Below, piece by piece: positions 2,723 through 29,176 of a stretch of 64,000 bases of DNA; the stretch's first letter is position 1, and each line of letters opens with the position of its first letter. A program made the translations under genes and the position numbers. This DNA is from Populus alba. Taxonomy: Eukaryota; Streptophyta; Magnoliopsida; Malpighiales; Salicaceae. The DNA is taken from assembly GCF_005239225.2 (NCBI RefSeq), contig NC_133297.1:22171882-22235881 (forward strand). The letters are read 5' to 3'. A model generated the notes under the pieces. The model saw nothing but the letters and a program-made list of their open reading frames with translations. It was not told the origin of the DNA and did not search any database.

Positions 2723-3993
2723 TGAGTAGTGCTTAAAAGTGCATTTTTATTAAGGTTTTATATCATCATTTTGCACTTGAAGTATCAATAACTTCTTGAT
2801 GAAAGCATGTTTTATAATAACAAGTCTGATACTATAAGATACTTTTAATTTATAGTAAATGTTCATCTTAAATACAGGCCTATCACATAAATCAAATGAT
2901 TGATTGATAGTTTAACTATGGAAATTTAAAAGACAAAGAGAAGGCCAAACTTAAAAAAAAAATGCTGGTTTAGTCCAAACTGGAACACTATTCGGTCATT
3001 GACCCATGCTGGTTTAGTCAAACTGGAACACTATTCGGTCATTGGGTCATATCTGGAGTTGTAGATCTTGGATTTAGGTCTGCTCTATATGGATGGAAAG
3101 CTAAGACATAGGCCTAAAACTTTCATGGGAGTCCAAGATTTAAAAAGCCTGTTTTCAGGTCCAAATTATAGCAACAACGGAGAAGTCTGAATTTATCCTG
3201 CAGCCCAAACATTGTTTAGTCTTCAGCCCATATCTCGAGTTCTAAAAGTCCAAATGACCTCAATTGTTTTTGTTGGAAAGCTGAGACAATTTTCTAAAAC
3301 TTTCATGAGTTAAGTATGTTCAAATTCTGACGTTATCAATGACGTTTTGTTTAGACAAGAAAATAATGATAGTCACCAAGTTAAGATGTGGCCACCCACT
3401 CAATAATTAGTCATCAAATCAATAGTGCTAAATTTTGGCCTATAAAAGGAGGTATTTGCCATGCATTTAGTCTTCTTGATCTTCAGATTAAGATCATGCT
3501 CTTTATTTGTTTCTTTATATTTTTGTAATGTTTATGTTTTATTTTATGTTATATTTTCCTTAATCTTTTGTTTAGGCTTTTCATTTCCCTTACTATACTT
3601 ATGTTCTTATGGTGTTTATTTATGTTTCTATTCTTCATTATGTTTAGCTAAGTTTATTATGTTAAGGCGAAAAGGTTTCACTAATGGTGTTAAAATAAGT
3701 ATAATATAAACTCAACATGGACTTCAATGTTTATATCCAAGAAAGTTTGTTATTAACATGTCTTATCTTTTTATCTTATTAATTCTTAATACCTTGCTTG
3801 TTAAATGATTAATCTAGATTAGTGTTGTATAACACTTGGTACAACAAATGCTTGGCACTTTCATAGCCAACTGTATGGTATAACCTACACTTGTGCTATG
3901 AAAGGAACTTGTTTTGTTATTAACATAAGTTAACATCATGAATTCCTTACAATCTTTAAAAGTATGGTGTACTTAGATAAGATAATTAATATG
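2723..3993 (+). repeat. LTR of copy A, truncated in R/U5
   Basis: It starts TG directly after the polypurine tract and follows the copy C LTR in reverse complement. It contains the two U3 half-repeats with the AGATCTT and CTCGAGTTC-type blocks, a TATA box at 3,441, and the CTTTCATAGC/GCTATGAAAG-type hairpin near 3,862-3,905. Similarity stops near 3,993, inside what is AACATGATCATATTAATTAT in the other LTRs on the opposite strand. The U5 end and flanking duplication are missing. Confidence 0.8.
3441..3450 (+). promoter_or_regulatory. LTR TATA box (copy A)
   Basis: TATAAAAGGA preceded by GGCC occurs at the same place in every LTR of this family. It marks the likely U3/R promoter. Confidence 0.65.
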
Positions 3994-5631: not shown

Positions 5632-6962
5632 GTTTAAACTCTTTTTATTAATCAACTGGAAACCACACACAAAGAAGATTCCAATCGGATGATTTATCCT
5701 TAATAGTTCATTATAAATTTTTAACATGATCATATTAATTATCTTATTTTAGTAACACCATACTTTTAAATATTATCAGGAATTCATGATGTTAACTTCT
5801 GTTAACAACAAATCAAGTTCCTTTCATAGCACAAGTATAGGTCATACCATACGGTTGGCTATGAAAGTGTCAAGCATTTGTTGTACCAAGTGTTATATAA
5901 CACAAATCTAGATTAACCATTTAACAAACATGGTATTAAGAATTGGTGAGGTAAAAAGATAAGACATGTTAATAACAAACTTTCTTAGATATAAACATTA
6001 AATTTCATGTTGAGTTTATATTATACATATTCTAATATCATTAGTGAAACCTTTTCACCTTGACATAATAAACTTAGCTAAACATAATGAAGAAGAGAAA
6101 CATAAATAGACAACATAAGAACATAAGTATAGTAAAGGAAATGAAAAACATAAACAAGAGATTAAGGAAAATATAACATGAAATAAAACTTAAACATTAC
6201 AAAAATATAAAGAAAATATAAAGAGCATGATCTTAATCTAAACAATCAAGATGCCTAAATGCATGGCAAATGCCTTCTTTTATAGGCCAAAATTTGGAAC
6301 TATTGATTTGATGACTAATTGTTGAGTGGGTGACCAACTCTTGACGACGTGAAAATCCTTATCTTCTTGTCTAAATAAAACATCATTGCTAGAATCAAAA
6401 CTGGAACCACCTGCACTCATGAAAGTTATAGTGAACTGTCCTATCTTTCCATGAAAAAAATGATTGACGTCATTTGAGCTTCTAGAACTTGAGATATGGG
6501 TTGAACACTGAATAGTGTCTGGGCTGTAGGACAGATTTGGACTTCTCCGTTGTTACTATAATTTGGACTTGAAAACGACCTTTTTAAATCTTGGACTCCA
6601 CATGAAAGTTGTAGGCCTGTGTCTTATCAAATCTATCCAAAACATTGAGGTCATTTGGACATCTAGAACTCGAGATATGACCCAATTACCAAACAGTGTT
6701 CTAGTTTGGACTACACCAACATCTCTTTTCTAAGTTTGGCCCTCTCTTTGTCCTTTTAATTTCAGTACTTAAACTCATCAATCAATCCTTTCATTTATGT
6801 GGTAGACCTGTATTTAAGATGAACATTTACCATAAATTAAAGGTATCTTATATTATTAGGTATGTTATTATAAAACATGCTTTAGTTAAGGAGTTATTGA
6901 TACTTCAAGTACACAATGATGATAGAAAACCTTGATAAAAATACACTTTTAAGTATTAATCA
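5632..6962 (-). repeat. 3' LTR of copy B, truncated at its R/U5 end
   Basis: It ends at 6,962 with the family terminus (AAGTATTAATCA on the plus strand), directly before the polypurine complement CACACCTCAACC. It runs down to the block AAACTC...AACTGGAAACCACAC at about 5,632, where similarity stops. A minus-strand TATAAAAG is at 6,277-6,284. The hairpin arms TTTCATAGC and GCTATGAAA lie near 5,822-5,870. Confidence 0.8.
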
Positions 6963-6977
6963 CACACCTCAACCATG
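6963..6977 (-). promoter_or_regulatory. Polypurine tract of copy B
   Basis: On the minus strand CATGGTTGAGGTGTG lies directly before the LTR TGATTAATACTT. It is degraded compared with the unbroken G run of copies C and D. Confidence 0.6.
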
Positions 6978-8187
6978 TTATTACTAGTCCTTAGTAATCA
7001 AAGTGTTAAAATAGAAAAACAATTTTAAAATTCCACAAAGCAAGGCCTTCATCATTCAACTTCCATTAATCTATCCAGATAAACAAAATCTCATTAAATT
7101 CATATATCTACTCAATATCTCTTAAACAATATATTAATAAACCTTTCTTTTGTGCTCAAAATATCAACATATAGTTATAGGGCTTTACTTGGAAAAAAAT
7201 AAAATTTTGTTCTAATGTTTAAGGTTAACTTCCTTGGGTTAAGATTATTATCTTCTTCTTTTTTATTTTAATATACACATATAACTTAAAACACAATGCA
7301 TCTTTAACCCATGTAACGAGTTTTCGACTAATGACTCGCAGACTAGTTGATCTTAGGGCATTAGGTGTTGAGAAACCCCTACGAGCTTAGTAACTTGGGT
7401 TGCAGATACTGATACGTAGATAGTGCAATGTTTGATTCCTTTAAGCTTTTCTCCTCAACCCATGCAACAAGTGTTAGGCCAATAGCTCCCGAGTCAGTTG
7501 GCTTTAGGGTATTAAGTGTTAAAACACCTTTTTGGGCTTAATTGCTTAGGTTAGGGAGGCTACGAAACCAAACTTATCTACATTTTTTATTTATTTATTT
7601 ATTTATTTTTTGTTTTGTTTTTTGTTTTGTTTTTTTTTTTTTGCAAATTATATACTATCCCTTTCCCTTAGTTGTTACCTTTAACAAAAAAACATGAATA
7701 ATATAATAATCCAATGTGTAACCCATAATCATATGTTAAAGTGTGTGTGTGAAAATGAAGATTTAAGAATACTTGTTAAATGAGCTTATGAGCAGAATCA
7801 AGTAATAACAATGCGAGAGTTTGTAAACCTTAATATTTCAAGAAGTATTCTGATAGACCTTGTTAAGAATGTTTACTAAGATGCGTCTCAAAAGTCACTT
7901 TAACAAAAAAAAAAAAACTCATTTACTCTGTCATCCTAGTAACAACAATTTTGCAAATAGTTTATGAAATAGAAAAACAGTTAGTTTTTATAAAAAAAAA
8001 AATATCAACCACTACCCTTTGCCCCTAACTAAAATGAGACATTGTCCTCAATGTCTTAAGGTAGAAAGATAGAGTATAGAAGACATCACCTGAAATAGCA
8101 AACACTGACAAACTTGAAACACACTTAAACAAATATAAGAAACAACAAAACACAATAATAAAACCAAAAGACACAGTTTTTACAAAC
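6978..8187 (-). other. Noncoding 3' region of copy B
   Basis: No gene. It contains the conserved two-copy repeat (about 7,310-7,412 and 7,457-7,560), a T-rich stretch near 7,585-7,645 and the internal purine-rich motif complement at 8,012-8,066 (GAGACATTGTCCTCAATGTC). Confidence 0.6.
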
Positions 8188-8841
8188 GAAGGCTCTAATC
8201 CAATCTAAGCTTTTTACAGCTTTCCTTAGTTGACCAATTTATGCAACTCATAGAGGGATCGATTACAAGGATGAAAGATTGTAGTTGGTCAATCAAATGT
8301 TCAGCAGTAGTAGCAGTAGCAGCAGAGATTATGATTTGTCAAGTCGAAGATGTTAGAAATTCCTGTTCCACAACATAATCAAGAAAAGACAACGACTTAT
8401 CATAAAACCATTAACAATTAATAGACATATGGGTTTATGATGAATGTGCAGTTGGGCCTAAGAGGAAATATGAAAGATCTCTTCCAATGTGCCCAGACCA
8501 CCTAGTAAGGCAATGAAGGCATCAACGTGTTTAAATATTGTATTAATTTGATCACACATTGTGGAGACCTGTAGTTCCTCTCCAATTGTTTTTCGAATGA
8601 TGCCCCCTTGTGCTAAAGCTTTGGGGAAAACCCCCAAAACTTGACTACCTCTTAAAAATGCAGCTATTGACACTCCCCCCATTAACCCAAGGTTGCCTCC
8701 CCCATACACTAAACAAATCTTTCTCTCAGCTAGTACCTGATCAAGATGATTTGCTGATTCTAAAAACTCTATTTGCTTCCCAAAACTGGATCCACCAAAA
8801 ACACAAATATTTTTTATGTGATGACTTGAGTAACTTGTCAT
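8188..8841 (-). pseudogene. LOG-like enzyme, broken copy (element B)
   Basis: The frame from 8,841 reads MTSYSSHHIKNICVFGGSS, keeps LVYGGGNLGLMGG and GKTIGEELQV, and stops after EIFHISS at 8,458-8,460. The stop is at the codon for the conserved Trp (SSW in copy C), consistent with TGG to TAG. The signature reads LGGLGTLEE, so the first Pro is lost. Homology to the LOG C-terminus continues past the stop to about 8,188. A protein cut at 127 residues would lack the C-terminal half of the Rossmann-like fold and should be inactive. Confidence 0.85.
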
Positions 8842-9049
8842 TTCTACACACTTCTATATTTGATAAATGTATGGGTTGAGTAGAAATAAATGGAAGTAAA
8901 AGAAGAATTTATAGATGAGAAATTGAAAATACAATCATACCACCTATATGTAGGCCAACTAAAGTCTCACACACTCTCTCTCTTTCTCTCTTTATTTATT
9001 TACTTATTTTAAAAAAGCATGTGTATGTACAAGTAGTTGTGATTATGGC

Positions 9050-9790
9050 TTACATCTTCCCTTGGTTTTAAATCCAAGAACGGCTTAAACGCCCTCTATG
9101 GGTTCGGGATAGGCTTCCCATCCAGATTTCTTAAAAACTGGCAAATAGGGTCCTTTTTAGTCAAATTCCCAAGACTATGTCGAGCATGTTATTTATGAAA
9201 ATGGGGTCATAAGTGATGAAAAGCACAATGCACATCTCCATCAGGATATGTCTCAAAAGTCAATAGAAGATTATTTAATGATTCCTTATGTTTTGAAATA
9301 ACTACTGACTTTTGACAGTTTTCATAAGCATTGCAAAATACATGTGTCTTTGAACATGGTGGGCCAATAAAATCTACATTGTAAGATTTTACAGTCATCT
9401 TTTTTGACAAAAAATGACTCCCACATGCCTTATAATGACAAAATTTAATGACACTACTTACTTAGTGTCAGGAATGTTTTTTTTGAAATATTTGATCAGG
9501 ACAATATTTGAATAAGTATGAGTCATCCCAACAAAAGTTTTGCACGTCGCTCAAAAGCTTTCTTTTGTCTTCGATACTCTAGTGAGCTGGCAAAAATCCT
9601 GAAGCAAGAAAATTGATATTTTTAGCAAATCAAGGCATTGAACTAAGAGAAAGTAAGGATTCATTAGGAAAGTAATCATCGATTGGTGTGATGTCAGATG
9701 TCAAATCTGTTGTCACTCTTGACAAAAGATCTACATCAACATTTTCGGTGCCTTTTTCACCCATGATTTCTTCCCGAGAATAAATCATTT
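9050..9790 (-). pseudogene. RNase H tail, integrase N-terminus and accessory-ORF tail of copy B, fused by deletions
   Basis: Reading the minus strand from 9,790: RNase H tail (GEKGTENVDVD-like), the linker [21 protein letters not shown] with a TGA at the conserved Trp, the start of integrase ([15 protein letters not shown]) and a frameshift. The open stretch 9,410-9,207 follows ([26 protein letters not shown]... then YENCQK). That stretch crosses the same junction as in copy A (ISKHKESLNNLLLTFE) into the accessory ORF C-terminus. The integrase core is absent. Confidence 0.75.
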
Positions 9791-9839
9791 ACAAATCTTA
9801 TGATTCATCAAACTTAGTTTTACTTAAAGTAGATTCAAG

Positions 9840-10380
9840 TTAATCATGAACTAATTCTTCAATAAAATCTACTTCTTGTAAATCATTATCATCTCCAGGT
9901 TGCTTGCAGATATTGATAACATTCATCTCCAATGTCATGTTTCCAAATAATAGCTTCATTAGTCTATTCCTACAATTAATCAATGCATTAGAAGTTGCAA
10001 GAAATAGACGTCCTAAAATAACAGGAATTGAATTACATGCTTCAACAAGTTCTGTATCCAAGACAACAAAATCTACAGGGTAAATGAATTTATCAACTTG
10101 TACTAACACATCCTCAACTATTCCTCTAGGCACTTTCACAGATCTATCAGCAAGTAAAAGAATTACAGAGGTTGGTTTTAACTCACCTAGATTGAGACTT
10201 TGAAAGACTAAATATGAAAGTAAATTCACACTAGCTCCAAGATCAAGTAAGGCTCTTTCAATTTTATGTTCTCCAATAAAGCAAGAAATTGTAGGACAAC
10301 CAGGGTCTTTATATTTCAAAGCATTATTTTTCTTAAGAATAGCACTTACTTACCATTCTTTTTCACATTTAGTTTTCTCT
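9840..10380 (-). pseudogene. Athila protease region (copy B)
   Basis: The 159-codon open stretch 10,319-9,840 holds the aspartic protease motif LLDLGASVNLLSY followed by the flap-side strand KPTSVILLLADRSVKVPRGIVEDVLVQV and VILGRLFLATSNALI. The motif is DLGA, as in copy C, in place of the usual DSGA/DTGA. Upstream residues to about 10,380 are out of frame. RT, which should follow, is deleted. Confidence 0.75.
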
Positions 10381-12086
10381 TCAAAGTGCATAGATCTTTC
10401 AAAAATTTAGCATAGAAAGGTACTTGTTTAATAGCATCCAACAAAGGTATATTGATCCTTACATGTTTGAAAGTTTCAAAGATTTCAGAGTTGTGATTGA
10501 CTTTCCTTTGTTTGGTCATGGCATGAGGAAAATGAAGTGTTGGCGGAGAATCAGTCTTTTCTTTACAATGTTCAAATACAACCCCTTCCTTACCCTTAAA
10601 GATTGACTCATCATTTTTTTCACAAGGTTCAAGAGTGGGTTTTTCAATAACCTTACCACTACGAAGAGTGATGACTGATTTGACTTGATCCTTGTGTTGG
10701 CTTCCAGAACTACTTGCATTTGCATTGTATTGCCCTTTTGAATTTTGTTGTGGTTGAGATGGAAACTTACCTTTCTCTTATAAACTGAGAGTAGACGTTA
10801 AATTTGCAAGAGTATCTTTAAAATTTGTCATGCCTTGAGCAAGTTGAGTGTTGATTGCCTCTTGCTTTTCAATGCATGCAATGTTTCCTTAAGATTTCTT
10901 CTAAGAGGTGGAGCATAAGGAGGTGCATATCCATGAGAATTTTGGAAGTTATGGTGTGCTTGAAATGGTGGTTGTGAAGTTTGTGAATTATTGTTATCAC
11001 TCTTTCAACTGAAATTTGGGTGATTTCTCCAACCAGGGTTGTATGTTTGCAAGTATGGGTTATGATTAGGCCTTTGAAAACTGTTTAAAGCATGAGCTTG
11101 TTCATGAAGGCATTCCTTGAAAGAAGGCAAAGTTGGACTGACATTGGTTGCATGCTTATTTGTTTCACATATTTGACACCTAATGTCTTGAATAGATTTT
11201 AATTGACCACTATTTTTCAATTCTAGTGCCTCGACTTTTCTAGCTAAAGATGCAAACTTGGCTTGGAGGTCGTGATCTTCCCTAAGGTTATACATACCTC
11301 TACCATATGTATGAGGTTGGGTTTTACTTGGTGCCTCATAAGTGCCCGCAGTGTCCCAATTTTGCGCATTTTCAGCTAGCAAGTCTAGGTACTCCATTGC
11401 TTCATTAGGGTCTTTATCTTCAAAAGTTCCATTGCACATCAATTCAACCATTTGCCTATCTTTAGGTGTTAACCCTTCATAAAATTGTGAAACCAATCTC
11501 CATGTTTCAAAACCATGATGAGGGCAAGTATTAAGCAAGTCTTGATACCTATCCCAACATTGGTAAAATGTTTCACCTGGTTTTTGAGCAAAAATGGTGA
11601 TTTGTCTTTTAAAAGAGTTAGTTCTATGAGATGGAAAAAACTTTTTTTTAATTGTTGTTGCATTTCATCCTAAACACGAATGGATCCTGACCTAAGATTT
11701 TGTAGCCATGTTTTAGCTTTATCTTTTAATGAAAAAGGAAAAAGCTTTAATCTAATGGTTTTCATACTACAATTTAAGTCATTATAGGTGTTAAATTCAA
11801 ATTCTCTCAAATGCAAGTATGGATTTTCTAGATCTAAGCCATGAAAAGAACGTAAAAGTTGAATAATATCTGGCTTAAAATTAAAATGAGATGCATCAGG
11901 AGGGAAAACTATGCATGAGGGTGCACTTGTTCTTGTGGGATTCATATGGTCTCTAAGTGTTCTAACACAGTTATTCTCATTATTATTATTATGAAGTGAT
12001 TGGTTATCTTCTTCGGTCATATTTTCTGAAAATGATAAGGATACCCTACAAAGTCTACCATTTAATGTACGTGACCAAACACTCAT
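10381..12086 (-). pseudogene. Gag, frameshifted (copy B)
   Basis: The start MSVWSRTLNGRLCRVS is at 12,086. The capsid-like Retrotrans_gag core follows (LKLFPFSLKDKAKTWLQNL, then FYEGLTPKDRQMVELMCNGTFEDKDPNEAMEYLDLLAENAQNWDT). The frame breaks near 11,660 and 11,530 and again downstream. The zinc-knuckle reads CQICETNKHATN followed by V-S, so the last Cys is lost. At the gag-protease boundary this copy has CAA where copies C and D have TAG. Confidence 0.8.
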
Positions 12087-12186
12087 GCACGTGTAGAAAG
12101 AGAATAAAAGGAAGAAGAAAACAATAGAAAAGGAAACAAAATTAGATACAAGTGAAAAGCGAAAATAAAATAAATACTATAACTTT

Positions 12187-12846
12187 TGTAACACCATACT
12201 TTTAAATATTGTCAAGAATTTATGATGTTAACTTTTGTTAACAACAAATCAAGTTCCTTTCATAGCACAAGTGTAGGTTATACCATACGGTTGGCTATGA
12301 AAGTGCCAAGCATTTGTTGTACCAAGTGTTATACAACACAAATCTAGATGAACCATCTAACAAACAAGGTATTAAGAATTAGTGAGATAAAAAGATAAGA
12401 CATGTTAATAACAAACTTTCTTGGATATAAACAGTGAAGTTCATGTTGAGTTTATATTATACATATTCTAACATCATTAATGAAACTTTTTCACCTTGAC
12501 ATAATAAACTGTGCTAAACATATTGAAGAAGAGAAACATAAATAAACAACATAAGAACATAAGTATAGTAAAGGAAATGAAAAGCATAAACAAGAGATTA
12601 AGGAAAATATAACATGAAATAAAACTTAAACATTACAAAAATATAAAGAAAATATAAAGAGCATGATCTTGATCTGAACAATAAAGATGCCTAAATGCAT
12701 GGCAAATGCCTTCTTTTATAGGCCAAAATTTGAAACTATTGATTTGATGACTAATTGTTGAGTGAGTGGCCAACTCTTGACTTGGTGAAAATCTTGACTT
12801 AATGGAAATCCTTATCTTCTTGTCTAAAACAAATGTCATTGCTAGC
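12187..12846 (-). repeat. 5' LTR of copy B, part 1 (inner part)
   Basis: It begins abruptly at TAACACCATACTTTTAAATATT, the same internal block seen at 5,754 in the 3' LTR, with no PBS or U5 between it and the gag leader. It carries the hairpin (12,258-12,304) and a TATA box complement (12,713-12,720), and is cut at 12,846 by copy C. Confidence 0.75.
12842..12846. repeat. Target site duplication of copy C, left
   Basis: CTAGC directly before TGACACGACC. The identical CTAGC follows the other LTR at 24,777-24,781. Confidence 0.9.
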
Positions 12847-13150
12847 TGACACGACCAAAAGCTTGATGTCTTCTCCCAAGTGCAGGAGTGTCGAAGTAAT
12901 AAATAACCCGGCAAGACCGGGGTCGAACCACAGAGAGGTTAATTGTATAAATTATAAATAACAAGACAACAACAACAATAACATCAATAACAACAACAAC
13001 AATAATAACAATAATTATTATTATTATACTCAGTACGTGGCGTTGTTATACCTGAGAATGATCTAAAAGATCGGGTCATAGGTTTCCAGCCTATATACTG
13101 AGTTTATGAAAAGATCAAAGATATATATTATATAATATAAACAGAATGTA

Positions 13151-13187
<37 letters not shown>

Positions 13188-14597
13188 GAAGAAGATGAAG
13201 AAATTAATGAGAACTTTGAGTTGGAAGATTAACGTAAGGATTAAGCAACGATAAAAACAAATGTCAAGGTTAGAGGATCCACTAATGGTACTTCAAACAA
13301 GTATAATATAAACTCTTATTACTCAATTGAAAACCACACATAAAGGAGGTTCCAATCAGATTATAAATTGTTAACATGATTGCATTAGTTATCTTATTCG
13401 AATAAAGCTAATACTTGTAAATGTTGGCAGGCATTCATGATTATAACTTATGTTAACAACAAATCAAGTCCCTTTCATAGCTCAGGTGTCGGTTATACCA
13501 TACAGTATGGGCTATGAAAGTACCAAGTATTTGTTGTACCAAGTGTTATACAACATAAATCTAGATTAACCATTTAACAAGCAAAGTATTAAAAGTGAAC
13601 AAGATAACAAATATAAAACATGTTAGTATCCAACATTAAGGTCCATGTTAAGTTTATATTATACTTATTCTTACACCATTAATGTACCCTTTTCGTCTTG
13701 ACATAATTAACTTAGCTAAACATAATGAAAGAAAGAAACATAAATAAACAAGATAAGAACATAAATGAGAAAGAAGTTAACTAAGTAAAGGAAAGGAAAT
13801 GAAGTGCATAAACTTGATATTAATGAAAGCAAAACATAAGCAATACAAAGAGAGAAAGCAAGAGCATGATCTTGATCTGGAAACCAAGATTCCTCAATAC
13901 ATGGTAAGTGCCTCCTTTTATAGGCCAAAATTTGGAACTATTGATTTGTTGACTAATTGATGAGTGGGTGGCCATATCTTGACTTGATAACAATCCTTAT
14001 CTTCTTGTCTGAACAAGACGTCATTGCTAACATCATCATTTGCCCAGAATCCTCAGGAATGTTCTAGGAAATTGTCTCAGCTTTCCAACAAAAAAAAGAT
14101 GAGGTCATTTGGACTTCTAGAACTCAAGATATGGGCTGAACACTAAATAGTGTCTGGGCTGCAGGACAGCTTCGGACTTCTTCGTTGTTCCTATATTTTG
14201 GACTTGAAAACGGCCTTATTAGATCTTGGTGTCCAAATGAAAGTTGTAGGCCTATGTTTTACCTTTCCATACATATAAAATGGACCTAAATCTGAAATCT
14301 AGAGCTCCAGATATGATCCAATTACCGAGCAATGTTCCGGTTTGGACTGCACCGACATCTCTTTTCTAAGTTTGGCCATCTCTTTGTCCTTTAACTTTCA
14401 ATGCTTAAACTCATCAATCAATCCTTTTATTTATGTGATAGTCCTGCATTTAAAATGAGCATTTACCATAAATTAAGGTATCTTATAATATCAAACTTGT
14501 TATTATAAAACATACTTTAGTTAAGGAGTTATTGATACTTCAAGTGCAAAATGATGATATAAAACCTTGATAAACATGCACTTTTAAGTACTAATCA
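12847..14597 (-). repeat. 3' LTR of copy C
   Basis: On the minus strand it runs from TGATTAGTACTT (14,597) to GGTCGTGTCA (12,847), 1,751 bp. It contains two related U3 units, a TATA box at 13,914-13,922, the hairpin at about 13,471-13,520, an (AAT)n tract near 13,150 and the CCCGG...CCGGGG stem near 12,909. Confidence 0.92.
13914..13922 (-). promoter_or_regulatory. TATA box in the 3' LTR of copy C
   Basis: TATAAAAGG on the minus strand, at the same LTR position as in the other copies. Confidence 0.65.
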
Positions 14598-14612
14598 CAC
14601 CCCCCAACCAGC
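14598..14612 (-). promoter_or_regulatory. Polypurine tract of copy C
   Basis: Minus-strand TGGTTGGGGGGTG lies immediately before the LTR TGATTAG. Confidence 0.85.
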
Positions 14613-15876
14613 TTATTACTAGTCCCTAGTAATCTAAAGCGTTAAAATAAAGAAACAATTTGCAAGTTTCACAAAGCAAGGCATTCATCATTCAACTTCC
14701 ATTAATCTATCCAGATAAACAAACTCTCATTAAATTTATATTTCTGCTTCATACTTCTTAAACAAGATATTAATAAACCTTCTTTTTGTGTGCTCAATGA
14801 AAACATAGATGATGAGGCTTTTGTTGGAAGAAAACAATATTATGTTCAAATGTTTAAGGTGAACTTCCTTGGGTTGGGATTATAATTATTATTATTAATT
14901 TCTTTTTTTCTTTTCTTTTTCATTTTTTTTCTTTTTATTTATGTACACATACAACTTAAAACACAATGTATCTTTAACCCATGTAACGAGTTTTAGGCTA
15001 ATGACTCCCAAACCAGTTGGTCTTAGGGCATTAAGTGTTGAGACACTCCTACGAGCTTAACAACTCAGGTTGCAGATACTGATACGTAGATAGTGCAATG
15101 TTTGATTCCCTTAAGCTTTTCTTCTTAACCCATGTAACAAGCTTTGGGCCAATAACTCCCAAGTCAGTTGACTTTAGGGTATTAGGTGTTAAAACACCCC
15201 TTCGGGCTTAATTGCTTAGGTTAGGGAGGCTACGAAACCAAACTTATCCACATTTTATTATAATCAATACTATCTTTTTTTTTCTTTTTTTCTTTTTTTT
15301 TCTTTTTTTTTTGAAAATTATATACTATCATTTTCCCTTAGTTGTTACCTTCAACAAAAGAACATAATTAATGTAATAATCCAATGTGCAACCCACAATC
15401 ATATGTTAAAGTGTGTGTGTGTGAAAATGAAGGTTTAATAATACTTGTTAAATGAGTATAGGAGCAGAATCAAGTGATAACAATGTGAGAGTTTGTAAAC
15501 CTGAATATTTCAAGAAGTATTCTAATAGGCCTTGTTATGAATATTGCAAATAACCATTAGAAAATTTTTACTAAGATGCGTCTCAAGAATAATTCCTCTT
15601 TACTCTGCCATCCTAGTAATAACAGTTTTGCCAAATGGTTTTTTTAAAAACAAACACAGTTAGTTGGTTAGTTTTTTTTTTTTTTTTTTTAACTACTACT
15701 CTCTCCCCCCAAACCAAAACGAGACATTGTCCTCAATGTCCTAAGGTAGAAAGATAGAGTATAGAAGACATCACCTGAAACAACCAACAATGATAAACCT
15801 GAAACACACTTAAACAAATATAAGAAGTAACAAAACAAAATAATATGCTATTAATAAAACCAAAAGACACAAGGTT
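14613..15876 (-). other. Noncoding 3' region between LOG ORF and PPT (copy C)
   Basis: About 1.26 kb without a gene. It contains the conserved two-copy repeat (14,977-15,078 and 15,128-15,230), T-rich runs near 14,900 and 15,280, and the purine-rich motif (minus strand GACATTGAGGACAATGTCTC followed by a TTTGGGGGGAGAGAG run) at 15,689-15,755. The long retained spacing in all copies suggests packaging, termination or priming signals, but none can be proved here. Confidence 0.6.
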
Positions 15877-16530
15877 TCACAGATGAAGGCTCAAATCTAA
15901 TCTAAGCTTTTTACGGCTTTCCTTAGCTGACCAATCTAGGCGACTCATGCAAGGATCAATGACATGGATGAAAGATTGTAGTTGGTCAATCAATTGTTCA
16001 GCAGTAGCAGCAGAGATTATGATTTGTCGTGCTGAAGATGTTAGAAATTCCTGTTCCACAGCTTGATCAAGGAAAGATAGCAACTTATCATAAAAACCAT
16101 TAACATTTAACAAACCTATAGGTTTATGGTGAATGTGCAGTTGGGCCCAAGATGAAATATGAAAGATCTCTTCCAATGTGCCCAGACCACCTGGTAAGGC
16201 AATGAAGGCATCAGCATGGTTAAACATGGTATTCAGTCGGTCAGACATTGTTGGGACCTGTAGTTCCTCTCCAATTGTTTTTCCAATGATGTCCCCATTT
16301 GCTAAAGCTTTGGGGACAACCCCCAAAACTTGACTACCTCCCAAAAATGCAGCCATTGACACTCCTCCCATTAACCCAAGGCTACCTCCCCCATATACTA
16401 AATGAATCTTTCTCTCAGCTAGTACCCGACCAAGATGATTTGCTGATTCTAAAAACTCTTTTTCTTTCCCAGGACTAGATCCACCGAAAACACAAATATT
16501 TTTTATGTGATGACTTGAGGAACCTGCCAT
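15877..16530 (-). CDS. Retrotransposon-borne LONELY GUY (LOG) protein: cytokinin riboside 5'-monophosphate phosphoribohydrolase
   Basis: An intact 217-residue frame. LOG enzymes split cytokinin riboside 5'-monophosphate into the free active base and ribose 5-phosphate in cytosol/nucleus. All core marks are visible: Rossmann-like start KNICVFGGSSPGK (10-22), phosphate loop VYGGGSLGLMGG (45-56), conserved Arg98 in MSDRLNTMFNHADAFI, the signature PGGLGTLEE (113-121) with the catalytic-type Glu, and HHKPIGLLNVNGFYD (134-148). Length fits plant LOG proteins (about 210-230). The first Cys of the usual CVFCGSS is Gly here. Host LOG genes have several introns and this frame has none, which points to capture from mRNA. 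It lies 265 bp after the cysteine-rich ORF and before the PPT. Family assignment is firm; activity and expression are unknown. Confidence 0.9.
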   Translation of the reverse strand: MAGSSSHHIKNICVFGGSSPGKEKEFLESANHLGRVLAERKIHLVYGGGSLGLMGGVSMAAFLGGSQVLGVVPKALANGDIIGKTIGEELQVPTMSDRLNTMFNHADAFIALPGGLGTLEEIFHISSWAQLHIHHKPIGLLNVNGFYDKLLSFLDQAVEQEFLTSSARQIIISAATAEQLIDQLQSFIHVIDPCMSRLDWSAKESRKKLRLDLSLHL

Positions 16531-16654
16531 TTCTACACACTTCTATATTTGATGAATGTATGGGATGAGTAGAAATGAAGGGAAGGAAGAGAAGAATTTA
16601 TAGATGAAAAATGGAAAATGCAATCATACCACCTATATGTAGGCCAGCTGTAGT

Positions 16655-16658
16655 CTCA

Positions 16659-16694
<36 letters not shown>
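16655..16694. repeat. (CT)n microsatellite between the two accessory ORFs
   Basis: A pure CT run of about 40 bp between the cysteine-rich ORF and LOG. It is much shorter in copies B and D. On the minus strand it is a GA tract in the untranslated space upstream of LOG. Confidence 0.8.
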
Positions 16695-16696
<2 letters not shown>

Positions 16697-16795
16697 ATTA
16701 ATTATTTATTTTGAAAAAGCATGTATGTACAGGTAGTTGTGATTGTGGCTCACATCTTCCCTTGGTTTTACGTCCAAGAACGGCTTAAACGCCCT

Positions 16796-17344
16796 CTATG
16801 GGTCGGGGATAGGCTTCCTATCCAGTTTTCTTAAAAACTGGCAAACAGGGTCTTTTTTAGTCAGTTTCCCAAGACTAAGTCGATCACGTTCTTTATGGAA
16901 TTGTGGCCATAAATCATGAATTACACGATGCACATCTCCACTAGGATGCGTCTCAAGGGTCAACAAAAGATTATCTAAAGACCCCTTACTCAGGCCATCC
17001 TTAATGAATTGTATCTTATCTTCACGGTTTACAGATACCATTCCTAAAGAACGACATGTCGCATTACAAGTCCATCTGGCACATCTGTGACAGACTTTCA
17101 GTCGTTTTGCACGACGTTTCTTTGCAAAAGTGCTTTTACCTGTTCCAGGCATGTGTGAAATGAAAGAATTGGAGGACTCACCTGATAATCGGACCTTTGC
17201 TTCAATCAGCCAACGAATATCTTCAGGAATTCCATGATTCATTAACAACCTCAATCTTGCACACCTAGCACGGTAAATTTTTGTAATCGCATTTGAAGGT
17301 AGAGCGGGAAAATACCTTTTCAACTTTTCAAGAGTGGTGTCCAT
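16796..17344 (-). CDS. Accessory basic cysteine-rich protein, resembling carlavirus nucleic-acid-binding proteins
   Basis: 182 residues from the ATG at 17,344. An upstream in-frame ATG at 17,404 gives 202, but copy D has a stop between the two, so the inner start is preferred. Residues 25-60 are a helical, Arg-rich region (RARCARLRLLMNHGIPEDIR). Residues 67-83 read GTGKSTFAKKRRAKRLK, a partial P-loop-like string running into a basic stretch. The cysteine motif C85-x2-C88-x4-C93-x3-C97 follows. A basic stretch just before a four-Cys finger, with the VNREDKIQFIKDG tail, resembles the Carla_C4 family, whose members bind nucleic acid and can act as silencing suppressors. This is recognition by eye. 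It sits where env-like ORFs occur in Athila relatives; no signal peptide or membrane segment is seen. Confidence 0.7.
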   Translation of the reverse strand: MDTTLEKLKRYFPALPSNAITKIYRARCARLRLLMNHGIPEDIRWLIEAKVRLSGESSNSFISHMPGTGKSTFAKKRRAKRLKVCHRCARWTCNATCRSLGMVSVNREDKIQFIKDGLSKGSLDNLLLTLETHPSGDVHRVIHDLWPQFHKERDRLSLGKLTKKDPVCQFLRKLDRKPIPDP

Positions 17345-17404
17345 TTTCAAAAGAGAATTGGAGACGAGATTCAAAGAAGGGAGAAAGAGCACAGAATTGT
17401 ACAA

Positions 17405-17555
17405 ATATATATAGATATCAGTTATTTGGGAAACTGAAAGAACCGACTTAAGTCACGGAGTACCGTTATCCGCCATTTGACCGGGGTGAAAGAGACTAGC
17501 AAAACAAAAGTCACACTAAAAAGCAACAAAAAAAAAAGTGAGAAAAACAAAATAA
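17405..17555 (-). other. Spacer between integrase stop and accessory ORF
   Basis: About 150 bp without a gene. A similar stretch in copy D (33,277-33,493) carries the same block GAACCGACTTAAG...CACGGAGTACCGTTATCCGCCATT on the plus strand. That conservation suggests a cis signal such as a splice acceptor or subgenomic leader. Confidence 0.45.
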
Positions 17556-18809
17556 TCAACCTTTATCAATAAGATTATTCAAACCAATGGATTCACTTTC
17601 ACTAGGAAACTCATCAAAGTAAGCTTTTAAACGATGTTCATTTACCTTCAAAACATTGTCATTCTTTGGATTCTCAATATCAAAGGCCCTATAAGGATAC
17701 ACATGTTTCAAAATAAATGGACCGCTCCATCTTGATCTTAGTTTTTCATGAAATAAATGGAGTTGAGAATTATAAAGCAAAACTTTTTGACCAATATTGA
17801 ATGTTTTTCTCAGTATTTTCTTGTCATGAAACTCTTTGATTCTTGCTTTATGAATTCTTGAATTGTCATATGCATCATTTCTAATTTCGTCAAGCTCATT
17901 TATTTGCAATTTTCGCAGCTGACTAGCATCATCAATGTTTGAATTGAAAGCTTTAATAGCCCAATAAGCTTTATGTTCAATTTCCACAGGCAAGTGACAA
18001 GGTTTTCCATAGACTAGTCTATAAGGTGACATACCTAATGATGTTTTATATGCAGTTCGATAAGCCCAAAGTGCATCATTAAGTCTTAAAGACCAGTCTT
18101 TCCGATTAGGGTTCACCGTTTTCTCCAAGATCTGTTTGATCTCCCTATTAGCAAGCTCTACTTGTCCACTTGTTTGAGGGTGATAAGGGGTGGCAACTTT
18201 GTGTGTGATTCCATATTTCTTCATTAAAGAAGCAAATGGCTTGTTGCAGAAATGTGTTCCACCATCACTTATTATGGCTCGAGGAATTCCAAATCGACTC
18301 AAAATATTGTCTTTCAAAAACTTTATCACTGTTTTGTGATCATTGTTTCGACTTGGAATTGCCTCTATCCATTTTGAAACATAATCTACTGCGACTAATA
18401 TGTACACGAAACCAAATGATGGAGGAAATGGACCCATGAAATCTATACCCCAACAGTCAAAGATCTCAATGACAAGAATAGGATTTAAAGGCATCATGTG
18501 ACGTTTTGAAATAGATCCCAACTTTTGACAATTTTCACAAGTCTTGCAGAATGCATGTGAATCTTTGAACATGGTGGGCCAATAAAATCCACTTTGTAAG
18601 ATTTTTGCAGTTGTCTTTCTTGATGAGAAATGACCCCCACATGCCTCAGAATGACAAAATTTAATGACACTACTTACCTCATTGTCAGGAATGCGTCTTC
18701 GAAATATTTGATCAGGACAATATTTGAATAAATAAGGGTCATCCCAATAAAAGTTCTTCATTTCGTTCAAGAACTTTCTTTTGTCTTGGGTACTCCAATG
18801 AGTTGGCAA
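17556..18809 (-). pseudogene. Integrase of copy C (in a broken pol)
   Basis: A 417-codon open stretch, in frame with the upstream pol frame after a TAG. The zinc-binding N-terminus ([30 protein letters not shown]) is followed by the DDE core: Asp in [11 protein letters not shown], Asp in [12 protein letters not shown], Glu in [15 protein letters not shown]. It continues to [28 protein letters not shown] and a C-terminal SH3-like part ([21 protein letters not shown]). All catalytic residues are present. It is called pseudogene because it would be made only by reading through four TAG codons upstream. It would insert the cDNA, giving the 5-bp duplication. Confidence 0.85.
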
Positions 18810-18845
18810 TTGTCCTGAAACAAGAAAATTAACAATATTAGCAAA

Positions 18846-20252
18846 CTAAGGCATCATAGAAACGGAAAATAAAGATTCATCGGGAAAGTAGTCATCGATT
18901 GGTGTGATGTCAGATTTCGAATATGTTGTCAATCTTGACAAATGATCTGCAACAACATTTTCGGTGCCTTTCTTATCTTTGATTGTGATATCAAATTCTT
19001 GAAGTAACAAAATCCACCGCACCAATCTAGCCTTAGAATCTTTCTTAGAAAGAAGATATTTTAATGTTGCATGATCACTAAAAACAACAACAGGTGAGCC
19101 AACAAGATAAGGTCTGAACTTGTCACATGCAAATACTACTGCAAGTAATTCTTTTTCAGTGGTAGTGTAATTCATTTGAGCACTATTTAAAGTTTTACTT
19201 GCATAGTAAATCACATAAGGTTTCTTATCCTTTCTTTGTCCCAAGACAGCACCTACGACATAATCACTAGCGTCACACATTATTTCAAAAGGTAATGACC
19301 AATCAGGAGGTTGAATGACAGGAGCAGAAGTAAGCAAGTTTTTAAGTTTAACAAAGGCTTCTTCACAACGTTCAGTCCATTCAAAAATATTATCCTTTGT
19401 TAGAAGGTTACTCAAGGGCTTAGATATTACACTAAAATCTTTGATGAACCTTCTGTAAAAACCAGCATGTCCTAAGAATGATCTAACATCTTTAACAGAT
19501 TTTGGTGTTGGTAAGTTGGCAATTAACTCAATTTTAGATTTGTCAACCTCAATTCCTTTTGATGAAACAATGTGACCAAGTACAATGCCGTTTGTTACCA
19601 TAAAGTGACATTTTTCCCAATTCAGTACAAGATTCTTCTCTTCACACCTACTCAAAACCTTTTCTAAGTTAGTCAAACAATCATCAAATGAATCACCAAA
19701 AACAGAAAAATCATCCATAAAAATTTCAAGAAAACGTTCAACCATATCACTAAATATGCTAAGCATGCATCTTTGAAACGTGGCTGGTGCATTACATAAT
19801 CCAAAAGGCATCCTTCGATATGCAAAAGTACCAAATGGACATGTGAAAGTAGTCTTCTATTGATCTTGCAATGCAATTTCAATTTGATTGTAACCGGAAT
19901 AGCCATCTAGGAAACAATAAAATTCATGACCTGCAACTCTTTCTAGGATTTGGTCCATGAAAGGTAAAGGGAAATGATCTTTTCTAGTCATTGAATTAAG
20001 TTTCCTATAGTCAATGCACATGCGCCAACCCGTAACAGTCCTAGTTGGAATTAACTCATTTTTCTCATTCGTTATCACAGTGACTCCAGACTTTTTGGGT
20101 ACAACTTGGGTAGGACTTACCCATTTGCTGTCAGAAATAGGATAAATGATTCCATTATCTAGAAGCTTAATGACTTCATTTTTCACTACTTCTTTCATAT
20201 TAGGATTAAGCCTTCGTTGCATTTCTCTAGAAGGTTTAGCATTTTCCTCCAA
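18846..20252 (-). pseudogene. Reverse transcriptase and RNase H of copy C, with an internal TAG
   Basis: RT starts in MEENAKPSREMQRRLNPNMKE, has the RT fingers (KWVSPTQVVPKK, MCIDYRKLN) and FYCFLDGYSGYNQIEIA, and meets a TAG at 19,857-19,859. It resumes with [16 protein letters not shown] and the catalytic box FMDDFSVFG. RNase H follows with all acidic residues in place ([50 protein letters not shown]). A second TAG replaces the conserved Trp at 18,846-18,848 (TGG in copies A and D). The core enzymes are otherwise well preserved. Confidence 0.88.
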
Positions 20253-21209
20253 CTAAATCTTGTGTGTGCAAATCAAAGGGCTAATTCCTTTTATGTCAGC
20301 TATGGTCCATCCTAATACATTTTTGTGCATTTTTAGAGTCTGTAATAACTTACCTTCTTGATGCGCATTAAGTTTGGAAGAGATTATTACCAGAAAAGTT
20401 TCATTTTCTCCCAAAAATGAGTATTTGAGATTAAATGGTAACGGCTTCAATTCAGGTTTTGGTGGTTGAACACTTGAAGGTATGGGTTCAATTGATCGTG
20501 GTGGCAATTCTTCAATTTGTGGCCTCCAATTGCATGCCTTTGATTCCTGAAAGTAGACCATTTGCAAATCATCGGATTCATCAATCTCAGTTTCAATAGA
20601 AGTGGTTTGAAATTGATCATGTACTAATTTTTCAATAAAATCCACTTCCTGTAAATCATTATCATCTCCAGGTTGCTTGTAAATGTTGAAAATATTCATC
20701 TCCAATGTCATGTTTCCAAATGATAGCTTCATCAGTCCATTCCTACAATTAATCAATGCATTAGAAGTGACAAAAAATGGACGTCCTAAAATGACAGGAA
20801 TTGAATTACATGCTTCAACAGGTTGTGTATCCAAGACAACAAAATCTACAGGGTAAATGAATTTATCAACTTGTACTAACACATCCTCAACTATTCCTCT
20901 AGGCACTTTTACAGATCTATCAGCAAGTAAAAGAGTTACAGAGGTTGGTTTTAACTCACCTAGATTGAGACTCTGAAAAACTGAATATGGAAGTAAATTC
21001 ACACTAGCTCCAAGATCAAGTAAGGCTCTTTCAATTTTATGTTCTCCAATAAAGCAAGAAATTGTAGGACAACCAGGGTCTTTATATTTCAAAGCATTAT
21101 TGTTTTGAAGAATGGCACTTACTTGTTCGGCTAAAAAGGCTTTCTTTTTCACATTCAGTTTTCTCTTCACAGTGCACAGATCTTTCAAAAATTTAGCATA
21201 GGAAGGAGC
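20253..21209 (-). pseudogene. Protease region of copy C
   Basis: The open stretch starts inside KDLCTVKRKLNVKKKAFL. It has the aspartic protease core ALLDLGASVNLLPYSVFQSL and VEACNSIPVILGRPFFVTSNALI, then a linker to RT ending LICTHKI before a TAG at 20,253-20,255. The upstream boundary is the TAG at 21,210-21,212 between gag and protease, shared with copy D but CAA in copy B. Confidence 0.85.
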
Positions 21210-22882
21210 CTATTTAATAGCATCCAACAAAGGTATATTGATCCTTACCTGTTTGAAAATTTTAAAGATTTCAGAGTTGTGATTGACTTTCCTTTGTTTG
21301 GTCATGGCATGAGGAAATTGGAGTGCTGGCGGGGAATCAGGCTTCTCTTTGCAATGTTCAGGTTCAACCCCTTTCTTACCCTTAGAGATAGACTCATTAT
21401 CTTTCTCACAAGGTTCAAGAATAGGTTTTTCAATAACCTTACCACTACGAATAGTGATGACTGATTTGACTTGATCCATGTGTTGGCTTCCAGAACTACT
21501 CGCATTTGCATTGTATTGCCCCTTTGGATTTTGCTGTGGTTGAGAAGGAAACTTACCTTTCTCTTGGAAATTGAGAGCAATTGTTAATTTTGCAAGAGCA
21601 TCTTTAAAATCTGTCATGCTTTGAGCAAGTTGAGTGTTGATTGTCTCCTGCTTTTCAATGAATGCATGCAATGTTTCCTCAAGATTTCTTCTAGGAGGTG
21701 GAGCATAAGGAGGTGCATATCCATGAGAATTTTGAAAATTATGGTGTGCTTGAAACGGTGGCTGTGAAGTTTGTGCATTGTTGCTATCACTCTTCCAACT
21801 AAAATTTGGGTGATTTCTCCAACCAGGGTTATCGTTTGTGAGTATGGGTTATGGTTGGGTCTTTGGAAACTGTTTAAAGCATGGGCTTGTTCATGGAGGC
21901 ATTCCCTAAAAGAAGGCAAAGTTGAACAATCATTTGTTGAATGTTCATTGATTTCACAGATTTGACACACAATATCTTGAACAAATTTTAATTGACCACT
22001 CTTTTTCAATTCTAGTGCCTCGACTTTTCTAGCTAAAGATGCAAACTTGGCTTGGAGGTCATGATCTTCCCTAAGGTTGTGCATACCTCCACTAGATGTA
22101 TGAGGTTGAGTTTTATTTGGTGCCTCATAAGTACCTGTGGTATCCCAATTTTGAGCATTTTCGGCTAGCAAGTCTAGGTACTCCATTGCTTCATTAGGGT
22201 CTTTATCTTCGAAAGTTCCATTGCACATCAATTCAACCATTTGTCTATCTCTAGGTGTTAAACCTTCATAAAAATGTGAAACCAATCTCCATGTTTCAAA
22301 ACCATGATGTGGGCAAGTATTAAGCAAATCTCGATACCTATCCCAACATTGGTAAAATGTTTCTCCTGGCTTTTGAGTGAAAGTGATGATTTGTCTTTTG
22401 AAAGAGTTTGTTCTGTGAGACGGAAAAAACTTCTTTAAAAATTGTTGTTGCATTTCATCCCAAGCACGAATGGATCCTGGTCTCAAATTTTGTAGCCATG
22501 TTTTAGCTTTATCTTTTAATGAAAAAGGAAAAAGCTTTAATCTAATGGTGCTCATGCTACAATTTGAGTTATTATATGTATTACAGACCTCCTCAAATTC
22601 CCTTAAATGCAAGTATGGATTTTCTAGGTCTAAGCCATGAAAAGAAGGTAAAAGTTGAATAATGCCTGGCTTAAAATTAAAATGAGATGCATCAGGAGGG
22701 AAAACTATGCATGAGGGTGCACTTTTTCTTGTGGGATTCATGTGGTCTCTTAGTGTTCTCATACGGTTATTCTCATTATTCTCATTATGAAGTGATTGAT
22801 TATCTTCTTCAGCCATATTTTCTAAAAATGATGAAGATACCCTACAAAGTCGACCACTTAATGTATGTGACCAAACTCTCAT
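21210..22882 (-). pseudogene. Gag of copy C, with one frameshift
   Basis: Starts MRVWSHTLSGRLCRVS at 22,882. The capsid-like core spans LHLREFEEVCNTYNN to AMEYLDLLAENAQNWDT. The zinc knuckle CQICEINEHSTNDC (C-x2-C-x4-H-x4-C) lies near 21,960. A base is missing near 21,830 compared with copies B and D (GTTATCGTTTG against GTTGTATGTTTG on the plus strand), shifting the frame. The correct frame continues in the 153-codon stretch 21,671-21,210 and ends NIPLLDAIK at a TAG. Gag would form the virus-like particle and bind the element RNA. Confidence 0.87.
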
Positions 22883-23014
22883 GCACGTGTAAAAAGAGAA
22901 TAAAAGGAAGAAAAGAAGAAAGAAGAAAAAGAAACAAAAGAAACAAAAGTTAAATAAAATGAAAAGTGAAAAGAGAAAATAAAATAAATATTATAATTTA
23001 TACAAGAATTTACC

Positions 23015-23032
23015 TCCCCGGCAACGGCGCCA
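23015..23032 (-). promoter_or_regulatory. Primer binding site of copy C
   Basis: Minus-strand TGGCGCCGTTGCCGGGGA, 6 nt from the end of the 5' LTR (GGTCGTGTCA). This tRNA-derived PBS is typical of Athila-like elements and primes minus-strand DNA synthesis. Confidence 0.9.
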
Positions 23033-23038
23033 AAAACT

Positions 23039-24776
23039 TGACACGACCAAAAGCTTGATGTCTTCTCCCAAGTGCAGGAGTGTCGAAGTAATAAATAACC
23101 CGGCAAGACCGGGGTCGAACCACAGAGAGGTTAATTGTATAAATTATAAATAACAAGACAACAACAACAATAACATCAATAAAAACAACAACAATAATAA
23201 CAATAATTATTATTATTATACTCAGTATGTGGCGTTGTTATACCTGAGAATGATCTAAAAGATCGGGTCATAGGTTTCCAGCCTATATACTGAGTTTATG
23301 AAAAAGATCAAAGATATATATTATAATATAAACAGAATGTAAATAATAATAATAATAATAATAACAGAAGAAGATGAAGAAATTAATGAGAACTTTGAGT
23401 TGGAAGATTAACGTAAGGATTAAGCAACGATAAAAACAAATGTCAAGGTTAGAGGATCCACTAATGGTACTTCAAACAAGTATAATATAAACTCTTATTA
23501 CTCAATTGGAAACCACACATAAAGGAGGTTCCAATCAGATTATAAATTGTTAACATGATTACATTAGTTATCTTATTCGAATAAAGCTAATACTTGTAAA
23601 TGTTCGCAGGCATTCATGATTATAACTTATGTTAACAACAAATCAAGTCCCTTTCATAGCTCAGGTGTCGGTTATACCATACAGTATGGGCTATGAAAGT
23701 ACCAAGTATTTGTTGTACCAAGTGTTATACAACATAAATCTAGATTAACCATTTAACAAGCAAAGTATTAAAAGTGAACAAGATAACAAATATAAAACAT
23801 GTTAGTATCCAACATTAAGGTCCATGTTAAGTTTATATTATACTTATTCTTACACCATTAGTGTACCCTTTTCGACTTGACATAATTAACTTAGCTAAAC
23901 ATAATGAAAGAAAGAAACATAAATAAACAAGATAAGAACATAAATGAGAAAGAAGTTAACTAAGTAAAGAAAATGAAATGAAGTGCATAAACTTGATATT
24001 AATGAAAGCAAAACATAAGCAATACAAAGAGAGAAAGCAAGAGCATGATCTTGATCTGGAAACCAAGATGCCTCAATACATGATAAGTGCCTCCTTTTAT
24101 AGGCCAAAATTTGAAACTATTGATTTGTTGACTAATTGATGAGTGGGTGGTCATATCTTGACTTGATAACAATCCTTATCTTCTTGTCTGAACAAGACGT
24201 CATTGTTAACATCATAATTTGCCCAGAATCCTCAGGAATGTTCTAGGAAATTGTCTCAGCTTTCCAACAAAAAAAAGATGAGGTCATTTGGACTTCTAGA
24301 ACTCAAGATATGGGCTGAACACTAAATAGTGTCTGGGCTGCAGGACAGCTTCGGACTTCTTCGTTGTTTCTATATTTTGGACTTGAAAACGGCCTTATTA
24401 GATCTTGGTGTCCAAATGAAAGTTGTAGGCCTATGTTTTACCTTTCCATCCATATAAAATGGACCTAAATCTGAAATCTAGAGCTCCAGATATCATCCAA
24501 TTACCAAGAAATGTTCCGGTTTGGACTGCACCGACATCTCTTTTCTAAGTTTGGCCATCTCTTTGTCCTTTAACTTTCAATGATTAAACTCGTCAATCAA
24601 TCCTTTTATTTATGTGATAGTCCTGCATTTAAAATGAGCATTTACCATAAATTAAGGTATCTTATAATATCAAACTTATTATTATAAAACATACTTTAGT
24701 TAAGGAGTTATTGATACTTCAAGTGCAAAATGATGATATAAAACCTTGATAAACATGCACTTTTAAGTACTAATCA
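23039..24776 (-). repeat. 5' LTR of copy C
   Basis: 1,738 bp, TGATTAGTACTT to GGTCGTGTCA on the minus strand. It is nearly identical to the 3' LTR; its (AAT)n tract is shorter (about 7 against 13 units). TATA box complement is at 24,093-24,101. Confidence 0.92.
24093..24101 (-). promoter_or_regulatory. Promoter TATA box of copy C (5' LTR)
   Basis: TATAAAAGG on the minus strand in the upstream LTR, so this is the copy that would drive the element transcript. Confidence 0.7.

Positions 24777-29114: not shown

Positions 29115-29176
<62 letters not shown>

Follow-up and report, generated by a model that had tools for sequence, protein, structure and literature searches.

In Populus alba, an Athila-like retrotransposon family of high copy number carries a LOG-family gene beside a second gene resembling the viral NABP family

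The genome of Populus alba contains a highly amplified family of Athila-like LTR retrotransposons with two accessory genes between integrase and the 3′ LTR, first a gene whose product resembles the NABP proteins of carlaviruses and betaflexiviruses and then a homologue of the LOG family. The reading that we favour, with slightly less than even confidence, is that NABP and LOG form a two-gene accessory module that benefits the element. The evolution of this module is well supported; its mode of action we infer.

Structure of element A

The window is the whole 64,000-nucleotide stretch of P. alba DNA that was analysed (22171882-22235881 of its contig), and all coordinates below are positions within it. 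One copy of the family, element A, has the following features.

12847..24776, minus strand: element A, an Athila-like Ty3/gypsy LTR retrotransposon, flanked by the CTAGC duplication at 12842-12846 and 24777-24781
23039..24776, minus strand: 5′ LTR of element A, from the LTR comparison
23015..23032, minus strand: primer-binding site, TGGCGCCGTTGCCGGGGA
21614..22882, minus strand: gag ORF (PF03732)
20253..21188, minus strand: protease ORF (PF13650)
18846..20252, minus strand: reverse transcriptase (RT)-RNase H region, in two ORFs
19857-20252, minus strand: putative RT ORF, assigned by position and outside the Pfam scan
18846-19811, minus strand: RT-RNase H ORF (PF00078, PF17917)
17556..18809, minus strand: integrase ORF (PF00665, PF17921)
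16796..17344, minus strand: NABP ORF, 182 aa from its ATG, with the frame open to 17404 (PF05515, PF01623)
16596..16602, minus strand: TATAAAT, a promoter-like motif at -72 from the LOG ATG
15877..16530, minus strand: LOG-family ORF, 217 aa, no intron (PF03641, E=1.4e-38)
14598..14609, minus strand: polypurine tract, GGTTGGGGGGTG, abutting the 3′ LTR
12847..14597, minus strand: 3′ LTR of element A, from the LTR comparison

The two LTRs differ by 23 substitutions over 1737 aligned bases (K2P 0.0134) and the 5-bp CTAGC duplication is perfect, so that the matching LTRs, target duplication and polypurine tract of a preliminary description of this DNA are all borne out. Gag-pol is broken up over several ORFs, although its domains are still recognised by Pfam, and the word "intact" used in that description holds for LOG, and for NABP as well, but not for the element as a whole. 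LOG does lie between integrase and the polypurine tract, as had been described, but the NABP ORF that sits between integrase and LOG had been overlooked.

Athila elements are marked by the order gag-PR-RT-RH-IN followed by a 3′ accessory region, by long LTRs and by a primer site of the tRNA-Asp type. Element A has this order with a 3′ accessory region, long LTRs and a primer-binding site that we take to be of the tRNA-Asp type. PF03078 (ATHILA ORF1/env-like) was absent from the six element A proteins scanned, a set that excluded the ORFs at 19857-20252 and 21210-21671. The earlier assignment to Athila is thus upheld by domain order, LTRs and primer site and softened here to "Athila-like", because PF03078 was not found among the scanned proteins.

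The window also holds the RNase H of another LTR element (41582-42238, minus strand; PF17917, 2.2e-25). Tandem arrays with periods of 62 to 192 lie at 25523-26539, about 0.7 kb beyond the 5′ LTR of element A, and others, with units around GGCAGCG and periods of 36, 71, 76, 107, 108 and 229, at 46017-46439, 47125-47841 and 48858-49095. A run of N at about 39310-39860, where the ORFs consist of X only, falls within a window total of 500 N.

Other copies in the window

Three further copies of the family are present.

1..4000, plus strand: copy D, inverted and cut by the window edge, with the same NABP truncation as copy B
908-1548, plus strand: LOG of copy D, three stops
5645..12846, minus strand: copy B, without RT and integrase cores
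8182-8841, minus strand: LOG of copy B, three stops
28938..38508, minus strand: copy C, without RT and integrase cores, with its own LTRs at 28938-30853 and 36676-38508 (K2P 0.061)
31959-32489, minus strand: LOG ORF of copy C, shortened by a 2-base frameshift
32728-33276, minus strand: NABP of copy C, two stops

The RT core is missing from copies B and C at one common junction, which joins element A positions 18984 and about 20550, and in copy D only nine bases separate sequence matching A 18984 from sequence matching A 21297. Copy C has also lost the integrase core, between A 17791 and 18503, and so have copies B and D, between A 16988 and 18503; in the latter two the N-terminal two thirds of NABP went with it. 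Copies B, C and D look like non-autonomous derivatives that retained LOG. Comparison of element A with the remaining copies in the window gives dN/dS values of 0.37-0.42 (LOG), 0.34-0.54 (NABP), 0.37-0.58 (integrase), 0.33-0.39 (protease) and 0.75 (a stretch of RNase H of 39 codons).

A LOG homologue with an altered active site

The preliminary description reported an open LOG-family ORF at 15877-16530, and this is confirmed, on the minus strand, by the PF03641 match (1.4e-38) and by a PDB sequence search in which At2g37210/LOG3 is the nearest solved structure (E=5.7e-59). Foldseek gave 2a33 as the best match (E 3.9e-12) to a predicted model with a pLDDT of 61.8. The motifs claimed for the ORF, VYGGGSLGLMGG, R98 and PGGLGTLEE, are all present, and it shows the profile and fold, the catalytic Arg and the PGGxGTxEE motif by which PF03641 family members are recognised. 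PGGLGTLEE is kept in 14 of the 15 intact LOG copies at NABP-chosen loci (defined below), and R98 in 177 of 187 related proteins, by pairwise alignment.

The residue that follows the catalytic Arg is different. All five solved relatives that were aligned have at this position a Lys, perhaps a defining residue of the family, which the LOG of element A lacks. Among the 187 related proteins the residue is L, M or I in 183, H in one and K in three. The three proteins with Lys all come from Xanthoceras (P0242, P0243 and P0290), which alone keep it; they are annotated proteins of 290-359 aa with two LOG stretches, possibly joined across neighbouring copies. By its sequence the ORF is a LOG homologue, and cytokinin activation by it is unproven because the Lys is replaced in 184 of the 187.

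Upstream of LOG, the TATAAAT at -72 occurs at the same position in 52 of 58 upstream sequences, two loci being entered twice. This is only suggestive of a separate LOG transcript, because most of the surrounding 130 bases are equally conserved. For NABP there is no conserved TATA-like box, the motif of copy A being found in 2 of 57 sequences.

A second accessory gene resembling viral NABP

The element A NABP has a basic KKRRAKR stretch and a C4 motif, and scores above the gathering cut-offs of two viral Pfam families, with 31.6 bits for PF05515 (Viral_NABP; cut-off 23) and 26.9 bits for PF01623 (Carla_C4; cut-off 20.9). The matched stretches are short, at residues 36-120 and 61-94. We aligned the element A protein with 26 of the 120 listed homologues, from 600 found, and each of the 27 sequences hits both viral models (E<=0.01). 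The basic stretch is common to the aligned proteins, as are a C-x2-C-x4-C-x3-C pattern and much of the rest of their length. In precomputed Pfam assignments for the 120 listed homologues, PF01623 is present in 116, PF05515 in 43 and neither in 4. On this sequence evidence the element NABP is best described as resembling the carla-/betaflexivirus NABP family.

The predicted structure of NABP is poor (pLDDT 55.7), and a BFVD search with it returned 69 matches, every one with E of 0.2 or more and none significant. Named silencing suppressors of plant viruses, together with the 15-kDa protein of cherry mottle leaf virus, take five of the six top places, and the viruses behind these rows are presumably betaflexiviruses. 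As none of these matches is significant, the ranking counts as weak support for viral kinship. Viral contigs scanned with LOG, with NABP and with both alignments gave no relative. The passages of PMC7588395 that concern p12, the NABP of the carlavirus chrysanthemum virus B (CVB), describe it as a silencing suppressor and a transcription activator.

LOG and NABP are linked throughout the genome sample

A genome search for the LOG ORF, as the preliminary description had proposed, makes it a regular part of the element family. Against the 416-Mb P. alba genome the LOG protein gave 1781 candidates; the best 150 were scored, and all 150 span residues 1-217 at 96-100% identity, 140 of them without a stop. 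Each is a single uninterrupted alignment, which, like the single 217-aa frame of element A, agrees with the intronless state described earlier. The NABP protein gave 1696 candidates, the best 150 of which were scored, at 94-100% identity. All loci examined further come from these two sets of 150 top-scoring hits, out of some 1,700 candidates apiece, so that old copies are missing. LOG was assessed at loci picked for their similarity to NABP (NABP-chosen), and NABP at loci picked for their similarity to LOG (LOG-chosen); two loci belong to both sets.

LOG or its 38-nt remnant is found at all 40 NABP-chosen loci, where it is intact at 15, full-length but broken at 14, partial at one and reduced by deletion of its body at 10 (L031, L034, L039, L044, L052, L053, L054, L055, L059 and L068). 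Conversely, NABP is present at all 30 LOG-chosen loci, nearly full length at 25 and partial at 5. Chance association is excluded, because all 30 LOG-chosen and all 40 NABP-chosen loci have LOG or its remnant in one and the same location next to NABP.

The ten deletions of the LOG body leave a 38-nt LOG tail 91 nt after NABP. Because their breakpoints are identical, they most likely derive, judging from these junctions, from one event that multiplied. The LOG-deleted locus L052/L075 has RT and integrase sequence, not in one frame. With 10 of 40 NABP-chosen loci deleted for LOG, the gene is therefore dispensable in cis, and a strict need for it in cis is ruled out.

Many copies have also lost pol sequence. 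The integrase core is absent from 21 and present in 14 of the 35 NABP-chosen loci, out of 40, that could be classified, and among the 30 LOG-chosen loci it is absent from 19, present in 10 and ambiguous in one. Upstream of this, the RT core is absent from 11 and present in three (one of them LOG-deleted) of 14 loci read further, a hand-picked set of six of the 10 LOG-deleted and eight of the 15 LOG-intact loci.

Selection on LOG and NABP

Mean pairwise pN/pS is 0.328 for LOG across 29 NABP-chosen loci and 0.280 for NABP across 25 LOG-chosen loci, values that, among young copies, can mirror selection on a few source elements. For LOG the ratio is 0.337 where the integrase core is absent (16 copies) and 0.322 where it is present (13 copies); for NABP the corresponding values are 0.305 (15 copies) and 0.344 (10 copies). 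Purifying selection on both genes, with pN/pS at about 0.3 also in copies that lack the integrase core, is well supported as far as such sequence comparisons go.

Variants shared between copies include fewer amino-acid changes than the expected fraction of 0.70, with 33 of 63 for LOG (P=0.0024) and 15 of 35 for NABP (P=0.0008), in binomial tests that treat variants as independent; the expectation is the share given by the genetic code with an assumed, not estimated, transition weight of 4. Against an expectation of 0.674 (weight 8), the P values are 0.0093 for LOG and 0.0024 for NABP. When only integrase-less copies are considered, the deficit holds for shared NABP variants (7 of 20, P=0.0013) and is not significant for shared LOG variants (13 of 24, P=0.074). 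Private NABP variants look neutral, with 39 amino-acid changes in 51, and private LOG variants, with 40 in 66 (P=0.065), are not clearly different from neutral. We read these patterns as constraint on LOG and NABP while source elements multiplied, which would have been followed by decay after insertion.

Relatives in other plants

Among the 120 listed matches, LOGs of the element type occur in Reevesia pubescens (24, which their locus tags place on 13 chromosomes), Diplodiscus (3), Paulownia (4), Parasponia (1) and Populus, with three from Xanthoceras besides. The presence of many copies in one genome hints that LOGs from other plant orders may, too, lie inside retrotransposons. In a tree of 47 hand-picked rows with many unresolved forks, the Populus rows form one clade (100/99) inside a clade of 43 (100/99, stem 0.37) that unites Malvaceae, Paulownia, Parasponia and Populus, apart from Arabidopsis LOG3/LOG8 and with Xanthoceras outside it. 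The element-type Populus clade also includes the proteins that carry the annotation "LOGL10" in P. trichocarpa and P. nigra.

The preliminary description held that the element had captured a host LOG mRNA. As a recent event in poplar this is unlikely, and recent capture from a poplar LOG was rejected on account of the multi-order clade (100/99), which sits on a long stem and apart from LOG3/LOG8. Searches of P. alba for host LOG exons, with queries of 194 and 81 aa, gave matches at 49-53% and 57-59% identity that are of the element type, since a complete copy without introns scores higher than any one exon.

The LOG and NABP protein lists share three contig sizes, 3394, 4511 and 8723 nt (0.2 expected by chance; P about 0.0007-0.0009, and 0.00085 for lists of 46 and 38 sizes). 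This coincidence, by identical size only, suggests that LOG and NABP stand together on these contigs, and in all three pairs NABP is conserved more than LOG.

Discussion

In the reading that we favour, the NABP-LOG module would act for the element in two ways. NABP may behave like the carlavirus protein, by analogy with which it would dampen small-RNA silencing, activate transcription or do both. LOG, possibly transcribed as its own short transcript from the TATA-like box at -72, would act on nucleoside monophosphates, perhaps releasing cytokinin, with the effect that the cell becomes more permissive. Of the two genes NABP would be the more conserved, and LOG a beneficial extra that an individual copy can do without; the LOG of other copies could serve LOG-deleted copies in trans. 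The proposal of the preliminary description, that LOG alters cytokinin locally in favour of the element, is weakened by the replacement of Lys in 184 of 187 relatives and by the multiplication of a LOG-deleted form (10 of 40 loci), and is not refuted.

A wider reading, which we offer tentatively, is that an LTR lineage spanning several eudicot orders has long carried a virus-like module, comprising a betaflexivirus-type suppressor or transactivator and a hormone-type nucleotide hydrolase. The module would reprogram host silencing and cell division as viruses do and would be retained even by copies without an integrase of their own, with NABP having moved between RNA viruses and retrotransposons in either direction.

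A minority possibility that deserves weight is that LOG is a dispensable passenger, acquired in one old capture, open only through the youth of the copies and their descent from few source elements, and now without benefit. The multiplied LOG-deleted form (10 of 40), found once alongside RT and integrase sequence, would fit this, as would the replaced Lys and the 14 of 29 full-length LOG copies at NABP-chosen loci that are broken. A gene without benefit is harder to reconcile with the single clade formed by related LOGs of several plant orders, with a catalytic Arg kept in 177 of 187, and with shared LOG variants that are poor in amino-acid changes.

Loss of the Lys could also mean that the LOG homologue acts on nucleotides other than cytokinin precursors, as another nucleotide hydrolase or binder that serves, for example, purine pools for reverse transcription. 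We consider this unlikely, although the common nature of the active-site change (L, M or I in 183 of 187), with the Arg and the PGG motif kept, is what such a shift in activity might leave behind.

For the second ORF, convergence is similarly improbable; NABP would then be a basic C4 zinc-finger nucleic-acid-binding protein unrelated to the viral genes. The short Pfam match (residues 36-120 and 61-94), the poor predicted model and the presence of PF05515 in only 43 of the 120 listed homologues by precomputed assignment are compatible with such an origin, but both viral models are hit at E<=0.01 by every one of the 27 sequences in the alignment, the basic stretch and the finger come in the same order, and plant-virus silencing suppressors head the BFVD list, albeit not significantly. 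A local event that placed a host LOG gene in a single element has a negligible probability; it is refuted by the identical location of LOG in each of the four window copies and in the loci sampled from the genome.

The preferred reading, of a module that favours the element, concerns two conserved extra ORFs for which silencing suppression and nucleotide hydrolysis are predictions open to test, in a tree whose genome holds very many young copies. Its lasting interest lies in the virus-type partner gene, in the active site that has changed, and in the constraint on both genes and their retention by non-autonomous copies. Should the NABP link hold, it would imply gene flow between plant RNA viruses and retrotransposons. 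At a practical level, the element-type proteins named "LOGL10" in P. trichocarpa and P. nigra can skew the tally of cytokinin genes; 13 LOGs are counted in a survey of such genes in Populus, and the string "transpos" appears nowhere in its main text (PMC3866579).

Comparison with known systems

The preliminary description knew of no plant LTR element with a LOG cargo. Steinbauerova et al. 2011 reportedly found two Athila-like elements similar to LOGL4. A YgdH/LOG domain is, moreover, already published for Gypsy elements, in consensus sequences of LTR elements from Citrus sinensis, C. clementina and P. trichocarpa, a finding presented as "in line with" Steinbauerova et al. 2011 in the section of PMC9289625 on these elements. 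LOG in such retrotransposons is therefore known, and NABP next to LOG is without an earlier report that we found. No report of NABP in a retrotransposon was found in the open-access literature, as judged by titles and the start of abstracts, and the available portions of PMC7264820, PMC6317226, PMC11728184 and PMC6338049 do not mention it. For most extra ORFs of plant LTR elements, origin and role are described as unknown in the relevant part of PMC7264820.

The P. alba element shares with the LOG/YgdH elements of Citrus and P. trichocarpa a LOG-family domain in Gypsy LTR elements, Populus included. To what the section on these elements in PMC9289625 contains, it adds NABP, the copy count, the selection test, the LOG-deleted and integrase-less forms and the active-site change. 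With Arabidopsis LOG3 and LOG8 the element LOG shares the fold, PGGxGTxEE, the catalytic Arg and about 50% identity, whereas it forms a separate clade, has no intron, has the Lys after the Arg replaced and lies inside a retrotransposon.

The likeness of the element NABP to the carlavirus/betaflexivirus NABP (CVB p12) consists in a basic stretch followed by a C4 motif, with PF05515 and PF01623 above gathering. In contrast to p12, it is a retrotransposon-encoded protein of 182 aa, in which no counterpart is seen outside the matched stretch. Ty3/gypsy elements of orchids with a captured m6A demethylase domain, as treated in that part of PMC9289625, are alike in having acquired an enzyme gene, but the enzyme is another one, and the capture is recent and reported from two Phalaenopsis species. 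Insect LINEs with a tobamovirus-type helicase, in the account available from PMC6338049, differ in being non-LTR elements with another gene, and offer the parallel of a plant RNA virus-related gene in a transposable element, for which silencing suppression has likewise been proposed.
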